The position numbers and the translations under genes are program-made. Below are positions 15,717 to 20,219 of a stretch of DNA of 63,532 bases, one piece after another; positions within the stretch are counted from its first letter, which is position 1, and every line of letters starts with the position of its first letter. The stretch covers positions 1 to 63,532 of the forward strand of contig JAHRYP010000012.1 of assembly GCA_020622105.1 (NCBI GenBank). Direction: 5' to 3'. The notes under the pieces were generated by a model that was not told the origin of the DNA, ran no database searches, and saw only the letters and a program-made list of their open reading frames with translations. Source of the DNA: Methylotenera sp. Its GTDB lineage: Bacteria > Pseudomonadota > Gammaproteobacteria > Burkholderiales > Methylophilaceae.

Positions 15717-16046
15717 TTAATAACTTCTAGTAAGAATCCACTTTACTATGGTTTTAATATCATCATCTTTTACTTTAGGGCTGTTAGCAGGCATAGGCAT
15801 CTTGCCCCATACACCGCTACCACCTACTTTTACTTTTTCTACGAGCTTTGCTTCTGCAGTTTTATCATCTTTATACTTCTGCGCTACATCTTTATAAGAT
15901 GGACCCAACACTGCATTTTGTATGCCATGACACATCAGGCATCCGCTCTTTTGTGCAAGTGCTTCAGCAGGATCAGCTGCATTGGCCAGACTAAACCCAA
16001 ACATCAAAGCACTGAATAAACATGCCTTTTTAAAAAGTGTATTCAT
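15717..16046 (-). CDS. Periplasmic class I cytochrome c (c551/c552-like), probable XoxF electron acceptor
   Basis: A 109-residue monoheme cytochrome. The signal peptide ends at SLANAA; the heme motif CLMCH lies at residues 36-40, and the probable axial Met is Met85 in KMPMPAN, as in the c551 motif PMPPN. It follows xoxF by 31 bases on the same strand with a good ribosome site (AAGGGA), so the two are cotranscribed. XoxF enzymes pass electrons to a dedicated c-type cytochrome; position makes this the natural candidate. It is smaller than the XoxG of Methylobacterium, so I do not assign that symbol. Confidence 0.9.
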   Translation of the reverse strand: MNTLFKKACLFSALMFGFSLANAADPAEALAQKSGCLMCHGIQNAVLGPSYKDVAQKYKDDKTAEAKLVEKVKVGGSGVWGKMPMPANSPKVKDDDIKTIVKWILTRSY

Positions 16047-16077: not shown

Positions 16078-17958
16078 TTAAAGACTAAACACATTCATTG
16101 CGCCGCCGCCAGGTGCTGCATTGTATTTAACCAGCTCTTTATAGCCGCCAGCTGCGCCTAAACCATCGGTATCGTTAGTTAAACCAAGGTTCATTGCAAC
16201 ACCCGCCCAGCCGCCAATACCGGAAAGCACGCCAACATACTGCTTACCTTTATGACCATAAGTAATGGCATTACCAACAACGCCTGAACCTACCTGGAAT
16301 TTCCACAGTTCTTTACCTGTATTGGCATCCACTGCTTTCATCCAGCGATCCAATGTACCGTAGAACACCAGATTAGAACCAGTTACCAATGCACCACCCC
16401 AGGCAGAGAATCTCTCTTTGTTGTACCAGGCTTGTTTGCCTTTTAAACCATCCCAAGCCATAAAGCCACCCATCACGCCGTCAGGACCTGCAAACATCGT
16501 GAGTGTCGCACCTACCCATGGCTGACCTGCGACGTATTTAGACTCAACAGGCTCGTAAGTCATACAAACGTGGTTCATCGGCACATAGAAAAGTTTTGTC
16601 TTCGGTGAGAATGCAGCAGGCTGCTCATCTTTCACACCCAGTGCCGAAGGACAGATACCTTTTGCGTTGTAATCCTGATGCGTTGAATAAGCCGCATCTT
16701 TAATTGGCGTACCGGTTTTCAGGTCAATGCTCTTTGCCCAGTTAACGAACGGCTGCATTTTTTCTGCTACTAATAATGAACCATTAGTGCGGTCAAAAGT
16801 ATAGGCAAAACCGTTACGGTCAAAGTGGGTTGCCAGGCTTTTACCTTTAGCGTCCCACAGAATGGTTTCATTCATGCCGTCATAATCCCACTCGTCATGC
16901 GGCGTCATCTGATAGCCCCATTTAGCCATGCCACTATCAACATCACGTGCAAAAATAGTCATTGACCATTTGTTATCGCCAGGACGTACATCAGGATTCC
17001 AGACGCCAGGGTTGCCTGTACCGTAATACATCAGGTTCAGTTTTGTATCGTATGAATACCAGCCCCAAGTCGCGCCGCCGCCATTCTGGTAGCCATCTTT
17101 TCTAGCCTGTGGTTTTAGCCAGGTTCTGATGCCCAGATCTTTCTCCGGGAACTTCAGTTTATCTTTAGTTAAAGCATTGAATGAACCGCCAACCTTGTTA
17201 CCGCCATTTACATCTTCGTACAATGACAGTGCACTGAAGTGCGGGTTATCCTTGTTAAAGTCATCGCCGATCAACACATCTTTGTCTGAACCGGTGCTGT
17301 AAGCACGCCATACCAAAGCACCGTCTTTGATATTGTAAGCAGTAATGTGGCAGCGTACGCCATACTCGCCGCCTGAACAGCCGGTAATCACTTTGTCTTT
17401 AATCACATGTGGCGCATTGGTGTTTGACTCGCCTACTTTGGTGTCAGTTACCTGAACATCCCAGATTGTTTTACCGGTTTTTGCATCCAGTGCCACCAGC
17501 TTGCCATCGTTCTGCTGCAGGAAAATCTTGCCGTCGCCGTAACCCAAACCACGATTTACGTTATCACAACATAGCAAAGCCTGAATAGCCGGGTCTTGCT
17601 TAGGAAAATATGACCATAAAATTTTCTGGTTATCATTCAAATCCAGTGCATAGATATTATTCGGGAAAGCGGTATGCACATACATCACCCCATTTACTAC
17701 CAGTGGAGCACCTTCGTGGCCGCGATTTACACCCGTAGCAAAAGACCAGGCAAGTTTCAGATTCTTGACGTTGCCTTTGTTGACCTGAGCAAGTTTACTG
17801 TAACCGGTATTGCTATAATCCTTGCGTGGCGCAGCCCATTGGTTATCATCCTGCATCAGTTTTGATAACTCATCTGCGGCAAAAGCAGTTGTAGTTAATG
17901 CGGTAAGCAAACCCGCGCCTAATGCGAGGCTAAATTTACGTTTAAATTGATGACTCAT
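16078..17958 (-). CDS. xoxF: Lanthanide-dependent methanol dehydrogenase XoxF (PQQ)
   Basis: Periplasmic PQQ quinoprotein of 626 residues that oxidises methanol. The signal peptide is cleaved near AFA-ADE (residues 25-30). The vicinal disulphide is Cys130-Cys131 (ALLCCDNVNRG). Metal ligands by family alignment are Glu198 (GGEYG), Asn316 (GTGNPG), the catalytic Asp358 and Asp360 in HDEWDYDGMNE. The second Asp, two residues after the catalytic one, marks XoxF; calcium MxaF has Ala there. No mxaI or xoxJ is in the window. A ribosome site GGGGA lies 7 bases before the ATG. It is driven by a sigma-54 promoter and is divergent from an AcoR-like activator. Confidence 0.97.
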   Translation of the reverse strand: MSHQFKRKFSLALGAGLLTALTTTAFAADELSKLMQDDNQWAAPRKDYSNTGYSKLAQVNKGNVKNLKLAWSFATGVNRGHEGAPLVVNGVMYVHTAFPNNIYALDLNDNQKILWSYFPKQDPAIQALLCCDNVNRGLGYGDGKIFLQQNDGKLVALDAKTGKTIWDVQVTDTKVGESNTNAPHVIKDKVITGCSGGEYGVRCHITAYNIKDGALVWRAYSTGSDKDVLIGDDFNKDNPHFSALSLYEDVNGGNKVGGSFNALTKDKLKFPEKDLGIRTWLKPQARKDGYQNGGGATWGWYSYDTKLNLMYYGTGNPGVWNPDVRPGDNKWSMTIFARDVDSGMAKWGYQMTPHDEWDYDGMNETILWDAKGKSLATHFDRNGFAYTFDRTNGSLLVAEKMQPFVNWAKSIDLKTGTPIKDAAYSTHQDYNAKGICPSALGVKDEQPAAFSPKTKLFYVPMNHVCMTYEPVESKYVAGQPWVGATLTMFAGPDGVMGGFMAWDGLKGKQAWYNKERFSAWGGALVTGSNLVFYGTLDRWMKAVDANTGKELWKFQVGSGVVGNAITYGHKGKQYVGVLSGIGGWAGVAMNLGLTNDTDGLGAAGGYKELVKYNAAPGGGAMNVFSL

Positions 17959-18049
17959 TTACATCCCCAAAATATAAAATCTGTTAAATTGTTGTATGAC
18001 TAATCTCAACCTCATCCGTTGGAATGACATTGGTAGCAATGCTTGTATT

Positions 18050-18064
18050 GCAAGCGATGTGCCA
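18050..18064 (-). promoter_or_regulatory. Sigma-54 (-24/-12) promoter of xoxF
   Basis: On the minus strand the sequence reads TGGCAC-ATCGC-TTGC, an exact match to the sigma-54 consensus TGGCAC-N5-TTGC with correct spacing. Transcription would start near 18039, about 80 bases before the xoxF ATG. The sigma-54 activator gene is divergent immediately upstream. Confidence 0.88.
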
Positions 18065-18198
18065 GCACTATATTTTCACTGTATTTTTTTGTTACCAAGA
18101 TTCGAATAGACTGATAAAATCTTTTAAAATCAATCAACTATTTTTTCAAAGAAGTTTTTCCCGATTACTGATATCGTTTTAATATCAATCGGATTCAA

Positions 18199-18245
18199 TT
18201 CTGGCACTGTGTCAGAATTGAACAGTTGTTACGTGACAGTTGTTC
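18199..18245. promoter_or_regulatory. Candidate upstream activator sites for the AcoR-like regulator
   Basis: Two imperfect palindromes of similar form lie close together: TGGCACTGTGTCA (18202-18214) and TGTTACGTGACA (18227-18238). Around the first, TCAATTCTG and CAGAATTGA form a perfect 9-base inverted repeat. The word ACAGTTGTT occurs twice (18222-18230 and 18236-18244). The distance to the sigma-54 promoter is typical of enhancers. The sites also sit 50-90 bases before the regulator gene, so they could mediate autoregulation. Confidence 0.55.
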
Positions 18246-18287
18246 ACTTAACGCATGCACAATTAACCTAAGCTATAAGGTCAAGTA

Positions 18288-20219
18288 ATGAGTTCTTCTT
18301 CATCAGGCAGCACACCTAGCATACTCCAAGCCAGAAACGAGTTTCTGGCCAATGGACATGTGCGGGAAGGTGCGATCACAGAGGCGATTGAGCGCTCATG
18401 GCGGCGCTGCCTTGCCAGTGGCATAGATACGCAGTCGCCATCGAATATCGAAGTTGTCACTGCGCAGGAGCTGGCGCGTAAACGTGAACAGAATCACCAG
18501 CTATTGGCACTGGCGCGGCCTGAAATGGAAACACTGAGCGAACAGATTGCACATACGCGTAATGTCGTCATTTTGACCGATGATGAAGGCCTGATTCTGC
18601 ACAGCATGGGCAGTCAGCAACTGTTTGGCGAGGAACAGCGCCTTGCCTTATCCGCTGGCACATCATGGAACGAAAGCCAGCGCGGGACTAACGCTATTGG
18701 TACTGCCATCTTTGAACAGTCTGCATTGACAGTTCAGGGTGCCGAACACTTCATGTCTTATCACCATTCGCTCAATTGCTCTGCGGTACCGATCTTTGGT
18801 GCGGAAAATCAATTGATCGCGACACTGGATGTTTCCAACGACTACAACGTATCACAGCAGCACACACTGGCATTAGTGAAAATGTCTGCACAGATGATTG
18901 AAAACCGGCTGTTCCTCGCTAGTTATCAAAGTGATGTGGTGCTGCACTTTCATGCCCGACCTGAGTTCATCGGCACATTGTGGGAAGGTGTCGCCATGTT
19001 CACTGATCACGGCGAACTCGTCGCTACCAACCGCAGCGGCCAGTTTCAACTTGGCCTCAATACGCAGCATTCACATGTGAATACTGCACAGCTGAACTTT
19101 AACCAGCTGTTCGATATGTCGATTGAAAACCTGTTAAGACAGATAGGTAGTACAGACAAGCTGGTGATTCCTTTACGGCTGAACAACGGCGCACGGATTT
19201 ATGTACAGGTGGAATTGCTGCATAAGAAACCGCAGCTTTCTAAACCAACACCGGTTAGCAAAAGAACCAGCGCTGCCAATCTGGATTTACTGAATAGCGG
19301 CGATGCAAAAATTGAGCGCGCAATTGCACAAGTCAAGCAAGTGCTGTCGCGTGATATCCCTATTTTGATTCAGGGGGAAACCGGTGTAGGCAAAGAGCTG
19401 TTTGCACGTGCGATTCATGAAGCCAGTGCCCAACATAAAGGTCCGTGGATTGCGGTTAATTGCGCAGCATTGCCGGAAGGCCTGATTGAAGCCGAGCTTT
19501 TCGGCTACGAAGAAGGCGCGTTTACCGGCGCAAAACGCAAAGGCAGCCCGGGGAAAATCGAGCAAGCCAACGGCGGCACGCTATTTCTGGATGAAATCGG
19601 TGATATGCCGCTATCGCTACAGGCACGATTGCTGCGCGTATTGCAGGAGCGTACAGTAACGCCTTTAGGCAGCACAAAATCGATTCCCGTTAGCTTTGCA
19701 CTCGTCAGTGCTACCAACCTAAAACTTAAGGAAAAAGTTGAAAGCGGTGAGTTCCGCAGCGATCTTTACTACCGGCTGAATGGCCTCAGCGTGTCGCTGC
19801 CTCCGCTACGACAGCGTTCGGACTTGAACGCGCTGATTAATATCATCTTGCAGATTGAACATGCGGATGATGTAAAAATCAGGCCTGAAGTGATGGATAT
19901 ATTTATTCAGCACCCATGGCCAGGTAATATCCGTCAACTGCATAATGTTTTAAGGACGGCGCTGGCGCTGGCAGATGGAACACCAATCAGCGAGCTGCAT
20001 CTGACTCAGGACTTTATTGATGAGATTGAATCTGCAGGCCAAACTGAAACGAGGCCTGAAGCACTGCCGTTAAATAACCAGAATCTGGATGATGTGACCA
20101 CAAACGCAATTGTTAAAGCCATGAAACAGCATTCAGGCAATGTTTCTGCAGTAGCGCGCCAATTAAATATTAGCCGCAATACGCTATACAGAAAACTCAA
20201 GACGCTTGGGCTGCATTAA
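18288..20219 (+). CDS. AcoR-like sigma-54-dependent activator (GAF, AAA+, Fis HTH)
   Basis: Enhancer-binding protein of 643 residues. The N-terminal ~320 residues are AcoR-like (ERSWRRCLASGI, then a GAF-type sensory domain with GTSWNESQRGTNAIGTA). The AAA+ domain has Walker A GETGVGKE (363-370), the sigma-54 contact loop GAFTGA (410-415) and Walker B LFLDEIGD (432-439). The C-terminal Fis-type helix-turn-helix is NVSAVARQLNISRNTLYRKL. AcoR-type proteins respond to small metabolites such as acetoin or alcohols/aldehydes. Here it is divergent from xoxF, whose promoter is a sigma-54 consensus, so xoxF is the likely target. The ribosome site AAGG precedes the ATG. Confidence 0.94.
   Translation: MSSSSSGSTPSILQARNEFLANGHVREGAITEAIERSWRRCLASGIDTQSPSNIEVVTAQELARKREQNHQLLALARPEMETLSEQIAHTRNVVILTDDEGLILHSMGSQQLFGEEQRLALSAGTSWNESQRGTNAIGTAIFEQSALTVQGAEHFMSYHHSLNCSAVPIFGAENQLIATLDVSNDYNVSQQHTLALVKMSAQMIENRLFLASYQSDVVLHFHARPEFIGTLWEGVAMFTDHGELVATNRSGQFQLGLNTQHSHVNTAQLNFNQLFDMSIENLLRQIGSTDKLVIPLRLNNGARIYVQVELLHKKPQLSKPTPVSKRTSAANLDLLNSGDAKIERAIAQVKQVLSRDIPILIQGETGVGKELFARAIHEASAQHKGPWIAVNCAALPEGLIEAELFGYEEGAFTGAKRKGSPGKIEQANGGTLFLDEIGDMPLSLQARLLRVLQERTVTPLGSTKSIPVSFALVSATNLKLKEKVESGEFRSDLYYRLNGLSVSLPPLRQRSDLNALINIILQIEHADDVKIRPEVMDIFIQHPWPGNIRQLHNVLRTALALADGTPISELHLTQDFIDEIESAGQTETRPEALPLNNQNLDDVTTNAIVKAMKQHSGNVSAVARQLNISRNTLYRKLKTLGLH

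Follow-up and report, generated by a model that had tools for sequence, protein, structure and literature searches.

A candidate sigma-54 promoter and enhancer between a Methylophilaceae xoxF gene and a divergent GAF-type activator gene

The window analysed here is a whole stretch of 63,532 bases from Methylotenera sp. It carries a gene for a PQQ methanol dehydrogenase of the XoxF type (xoxF, 16078-17958, minus strand, 626 amino acids), a divergently transcribed gene for a sigma-54 activator (18288-20219, plus strand) and, 3' of xoxF, a small cytochrome c gene (15717-16046, minus strand, PF00034). The xoxF product scores 648.8 bits against TIGR03075, for which the cut-off is 480.05, and its sequence reads Asp-Tyr-Asp within HDEWDYDGMN. 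Membership of the PQQ methanol/ethanol dehydrogenase family and a second Asp two residues on together place it in the XoxF type; Asp pairs two residues apart are tabulated for XoxF structures in PMC11845868.

The small cytochrome is the probable electron acceptor of the xoxF product. Of 29 loci from relatives (L042-L070), 15 have a homologue adjoining xoxF and 14 do not, the latter including those of genomes G141, G142, G143 and G158. In the literature, the xoxF gene mmol_1770 has the small cytochrome gene mmol_1769 as its neighbour and m301_1208 is without that cytochrome (PMC3728764, section 11); mmol_1770 is classed as XoxF4-2, methanol-specific, and mmol_2048 as XoxF4-1 (PMC6028718). Because its small cytochrome neighbour matches the description of mmol_1769/mmol_1770 and its tree position is on the regulator-linked side, the window's xoxF fits XoxF4-2, an assignment read from neighbourhood and tree and not from a comparison by name with the published reference sequence. 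The transcriptomes reported in section 11 of PMC3728764 have mmol_1770 raised 4- to 6-fold in situ, msip34_0016 100-fold and mmol_2048 no more than slightly. Mutants in xoxF are available for Methylotenera mobilis JLW8 (PMC6028718).

Upstream of xoxF lies a putative sigma-54 promoter, TGGCACATCGCTTGC, at 18050-18064 on the minus strand, with a predicted transcription start near 18039. An earlier reading of the window, made from the sequence only, had described TGGCAC-N5-TTGC here, about 90 bases before the xoxF start. We located the exact match, within TGGCACATCGCTTGCA at 18064-18049, and measured 91 bp between the promoter and the xoxF ATG at 17958; the observation of a -24/-12 site and a divergent activator is confirmed. 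The base after TTGC is A, in agreement with TTGCW. This is the sole exact match in the window, against an expectation of 0.33, and it is weak evidence by itself, because at least one such match occurs in 28 of 100 dinucleotide shuffles of the window; with up to two mismatches allowed, the window contains 63 matches and 58.5 are expected. It is by comparing relatives, as described below, that the site can be told from a chance match.

The divergent gene encodes an intact protein of 643 amino acids with a GAF domain (residues 72-208), a Sigma54_activat domain (339-502) and an HTH_8 domain (605-638). An AAA+ domain with Walker A (GETGVGKE), Walker B (GGTLFLDEI) and GAFTGA motifs, joined to a Fis-type HTH, identifies it as an enhancer-binding protein, just as the sequence-only reading had claimed for the gene at 18288. 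The N-terminal part is predicted to form a GAF plus PAS-like sensor. Its structural model (mean pLDDT 86, pTM 0.84) has DhaR N-terminal parts as closest solved folds at ranks 1-3, a moderate similarity (TM 0.51-0.52 by query length), followed by IclR-type ligand domains, some of them solved with small metabolites. The modelled fold would fit metabolite or protein sensing and names no signal. DhaR membership is rejected at 324.3 bits against the 551 of NCBIfam DhaR NF008485, and AcoR membership is rejected by neighbourhood, the adjoining gene being xoxF and not acetoin catabolic genes. In the earlier label 'AcoR-like' the GAF/AAA+/Fis HTH type holds good, but the AcoR name is loose, given that the closest sensor fold is that of DhaR. 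The sigma factor is also at hand: rpoN is present in the same genome (TIGR02395, 456.9 bits, cut-off 277.35) and in 177 of 187 family genomes.

The activator was searched for in these 187 genomes, and 64 regulator places were examined, with many matches to the AAA+ part only being set aside. TGGCA(C/T)-N5-TTGC is present upstream of all 48 xoxF genes that adjoin a divergent activator ortholog (45 Methylophilaceae genomes); adding one unlinked xoxF, that of G177, brings the count to 49 of 49 genes in 46 genomes. Nine box positions are invariant in the 49 genes, whereas the sixth can be either C or T and the spacer is variable. The site lies 39-122 bp before xoxF starts that are approximate, being taken from tblastn alignments. 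An intergenic alignment of 29 rows has 19 invariant columns out of 329, nine of them in the promoter boxes and six at 18208-18228. The control set consists of 61 family XoxF paralogues without a linked regulator, hand-picked among the matches listed; it includes L002, a second full-length xoxF of the same genome, 75% identical to the window's, which has no TGGCA(C/T)-N5-TTGC upstream. The site occurs in none of these 61 controls among the matches listed (450 bp upstream for 60, 292 bp for one), and the best control box match among them is 9 of 10 positions, TTGCACATGAATTGCG, 409 bp from the gene at L154. Loss of the site in relatives was among the refuting outcomes named by the sequence-only reading, and it did not occur: the site is kept in 48 of 48 linked genes and missing from 61 of 61 unlinked ones among the matches listed. 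Among the genes examined, the -24/-12 promoter is confined to the regulator-linked xoxF group.

The 48 include a broken regulator (L100), two regulators truncated by contig ends (L065, L103), a xoxF truncated in the same way (L021) and a locus, L028, whose regulator contains a stop and whose xoxF match is split. Outside them are the other 16 of the 64 places: L025, at a contig end, which when refetched as L104 has a visible TGGCAC-N5-TTGC site; L076 and L077, which face a phosphoesterase gene; L087, with another neighbour; L101 and L102, beside soluble-monooxygenase-like genes; and ten that face aldehyde dehydrogenases. In a FastTree of 109 XoxF rows plus outgroup, linked and unlinked labels differ by one change, across a separating branch of low support (41). 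The 48 linked-labelled rows of this tree represent 43 different genes, five having been entered twice; one row, L051, is the G177 gene without adjacent regulator, labelled as linked, and six linked genes lie outside the tree (those of L021, L028, L036, L039, L040 and L041).

The activator tree (58 rows) places the xoxF-linked regulators in one group, interrupted only by a phosphoesterase-facing copy from G055. An exact GAFTGA was required for this tree and 20 rows were left out, 13 of them xoxF-linked regulators in which GAYTGA replaces GAFTGA; all 13 are of genus g15 (L040, L041, L071-L075, L078-L083). A regulator of G177 is sister to the xoxF-linked group; it faces a gene for an aldehyde dehydrogenase, which has TGGCACACCGCTTGCG of its own. 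Most members of the next group are linked to aldehyde dehydrogenases. Among the next-nearest Methylophilaceae regulators examined, ten have an enzyme neighbour that could be read; each of the ten faces an aldehyde dehydrogenase, nine with a DUF779 gene. As a hint at the signal this link is soft, since the strict site is missing at nine of the ten.

Three genomes depart from the simple pairing of gene and regulator. The unlinked xoxF of G177 (L109, G177:C9:52000-54200) has an ABC-transporter gene as its upstream neighbour and retains both the site and two dyads of the kind described below, which is what one would predict were it controlled by a regulator encoded at another place in that genome; the candidate regulators are on other contigs, beside aldehyde dehydrogenases. 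G056 has a broken adjacent regulator, retains the site and xoxF, and has a second, open regulator gene. In G055, two equal-scoring copies of the xoxF-type activator (L076 and L077, G055:C1, near 943 kb and 1086 kb) lie 143 kb apart, each facing a phosphoesterase gene without the site, which counts against our reading; at L076 the dyad is present and the sigma-54 site is missing. It looks as if the G055 regulator has lost its xoxF.

Within the intergenic region, a putative enhancer (UAS) dyad, TGTTCAATTCTGACACA, lies at 18208-18224 on the minus strand. Counting up to 260 bp above the -24 box, its pattern, TGT-N11-ACA, is found in 48 of the 49 upstream regions, the main dyad starting 118-160 bp above; the strict form is missing only at L028. 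In 200 shuffles that preserve base composition only, the mean is 3.5 and the largest count 8 of 49. The pattern is found in seven of the 61 control genes among the matches listed, six times at other distances; the L002 dyad is an AT-rich match at a distance comparable to that of the linked genes' dyads. Enhancer sites of sigma-54 promoters lie roughly 80-200 bp upstream, and by this sequence criterion the dyad is placed as expected in all but one of the 49 regions. The dyad is a probable enhancer site for the activator, and a second conserved element, TGTCACGTAACA, at 18227-18238 on the minus strand, an aligned block that was not counted on its own, is a probable second one.

Between enhancer and promoter there is an IHF-like site, AATCAATCAACTA (18128-18140, plus strand), with 8 of 9 consensus positions. 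Perfect IHF-like sites occur in 14 of the 49 regions, against 0.7 expected from base-composition shuffles, and at recurring set distances; the window's copy is imperfect, and a fit of 8 of 9 positions is expected by chance in as many as 11.4 of the 49. In the window sequence, a near-perfect inverted repeat of 29 bp (18194-18222, 14-nucleotide arms, 93% complementary) overlaps the enhancer dyad.

The same genome contains 34 matches to TGGCAY-N5-TTGC and 6 to the reversed pattern. Dyads were looked for at 33 of the 34, C15:23603 being left out, and the conserved kind was found only at xoxF. At two other sites there is a loose TGT-N11-ACA, 218 bp above one and 92 bp above the other, but these are not of the TGTTCA...GACACA kind. 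With xoxF alone carrying the conserved kind of dyad, the activator looks dedicated to xoxF, within the reach of this pattern.

On this evidence, we consider it very probable that xoxF, of XoxF4-2 type, is under sigma-54 control by the divergent GAF-type activator. Control by the adjoining activator had been proposed by the sequence-only reading, and it gains support from the conservation of the site, the probable enhancer dyad and the presence of rpoN. Besides the G055 copies, what weighs against it is the missing strict dyad at L028, the seven control dyads, that of L002 among them, the GAYTGA variant in 13 xoxF-linked regulators and the broken adjacent regulator of G056. In the mechanism we propose, xoxF would be transcribed from the promoter at 18064-18050, with a start near 18039, and sigma-54 RNA polymerase by itself would stay closed there. 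The activator would bind the dyads at 18208-18238, some 145-175 bp above the -24 box. With the DNA bent, perhaps through IHF near 18128-18140, it would reach the promoter; there its GAFTGA loop would contact sigma-54 and drive opening at the expense of ATP. Opening would be gated by the GAF-PAS sensor. The signal is a guess, to which we give slightly better than even chances: a short alcohol or aldehyde (methanol, formaldehyde or acetaldehyde). The switch, we infer, would have no lanthanide input.

The nature of the signal is where another reading has most to say. The same machinery could serve a sensor that reads a protein partner, the redox or oxygen state or the lanthanide/PQQ state in place of an alcohol or aldehyde, and we hold this to be a serious, if lesser, possibility. 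DhaR, whose N-terminal parts, complexed with DhaK or DhaL, provide the moderate best matches to the sensor model, itself reads DhaK or DhaL and offers a precedent for a protein partner. Against this, the nearest Methylophilaceae regulators unlinked to xoxF mostly face aldehyde dehydrogenases, and the next structural matches are IclR-type domains, some solved with small metabolites.

Two further explanations were weighed. One is that a sigma-70 promoter is the main driver of xoxF and the sigma-54 site a minor or condition-specific start. There is a sigma-70-like pair matching 9 of 12 positions at 18095-18067 on the minus strand, but such pairs are no commoner than expected (4 in 2.8 kb against 5.2), and the 18095-18067 stretch before the -24 box has no invariant column in the 29-row alignment; we therefore reject a main sigma-70 promoter and rate the idea as improbable. 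The other is that a chance consensus match happens to lie beside an unrelated regulator. The window shuffles given above make a single match of this kind unremarkable, but chance is contradicted by conservation, with the site in 49 of 49 genes against 0 of 61 controls among the matches listed and a spacer that varies between fixed boxes; we reject it as having next to no probability.

Outside the family, the matches listed include a Nevskia MAG whose xoxF (58% identical) is preceded, at 185 bp, by TGGCACGGCTGTTGCT. A sigma-54 activator (40%) lies in the same gene cluster about 2.7 kb beyond, and after it come zinc alcohol dehydrogenase, esterase and cytochrome genes. No TGT-N11-ACA dyad was found upstream of the Nevskia site. 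A broader reading joins two claims: that XoxF4-2 of Methylophilaceae would have as its dedicated control a sigma-54 switch that is gated by substrate, acts in an all-or-none manner and stands apart from the lanthanide two-component systems, and that a like arrangement would have arisen separately in the Nevskia MAG. Because the Nevskia site is without the dyad, we have lowered our already limited belief in this joint reading a little further and now think it rather doubtful.

Several other loci came to light in these searches. In contigs of Paraburkholderia and Pseudomonas (L171, L172, L202), distant activators lie close to genes for other PQQ dehydrogenases, and TGGCAT-N5-TTGC sites are present there too. 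A contig scan with the activator returned, among the matches listed (at least 80 loci), one from Methylophilaceae, L235, matching the AAA+ part only. In the window's own genus, L101 (G156:C74) and L102 (G157:C67) have a sigma-54 activator, 36-37% identical, beside the soluble-monooxygenase-like genes. Those of L101 match mmoZ, mmoD and mmoC of soluble methane monooxygenase just below the NCBIfam cut-offs and gave no match in a plasmid search; L102 looks alike by neighbourhood. These loci may point to a member of Methylophilaceae that oxidises methane or alkanes, or else to contamination of the assembly by a foreign contig.

The neighbourhood of xoxF and activator seems to be already in print, since the map of xox clusters in a 2024 review has a sigma-54 regulator, described as GAF-modulated, among its labels (Figure 1 legend, PMC11845868). 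In the accessible portions of the open-licence literature, we found no sigma-54 promoter, enhancer, subtype restriction or functional claim for xoxF, and we found no mention of mmol_1771 in that literature. The same review states that the regulation of XoxF expression still needs more study, and the XoxF4 paralogues of Methylophilaceae, XoxF4-2 and XoxF4-1, differ in expression in transcriptomes (PMC3728764). If our reading is true, a sigma-54 switch would explain the differing expression of XoxF4-2 and its sister enzyme, and substrate control would be separable from the lanthanide switch. A promoter, an enhancer and one candidate activator, tied to one XoxF subtype and not the other, make the proposal testable.

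Several known systems resemble the proposed switch in part. BmoR of Thauera butanivorans is an alcohol-responsive sigma-54 activator that drives alkane/alcohol oxidation genes from Pbmo; its target is an alkane monooxygenase and its inducers are C4-C6 linear and C3-C5 branched alcohols, and we liken the two by description, not by sequence (PMC6366067). The mmo operon of methanotrophs has a sigma-54 promoter, YTGGCACGrNNNTTGCW, and MmoR of Methylocella and Methyloferula is a GAF-type activator for a C1 oxidation step, although its target, soluble methane monooxygenase, acts one step before methanol (PMC5874634). The exaA gene of Azospirillum brasilense Sp7, as told in PMC6115532, is a sigma-54-dependent PQQ alcohol dehydrogenase gene; unlike the case proposed here, its regulator is of the LuxR type, it is induced by glycerol and it is not a xoxF. 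Escherichia coli DhaR appears, from the model, to share the GAF and PAS-like sensor across the whole N-terminal part, but the window's activator falls below the 551-bit DhaR cut-off and has a different target. Finally, the lanthanide switches MxaY/MxaB, MxbDM, MxcQE and PedS2/PedR2 control lanthanide-dependent alcohol dehydrogenase genes, but they are two-component systems, and the accessible portions of the papers that describe them present no sigma-54 promoter for xoxF (PMC5018670, PMC11845868, PMC6115532).
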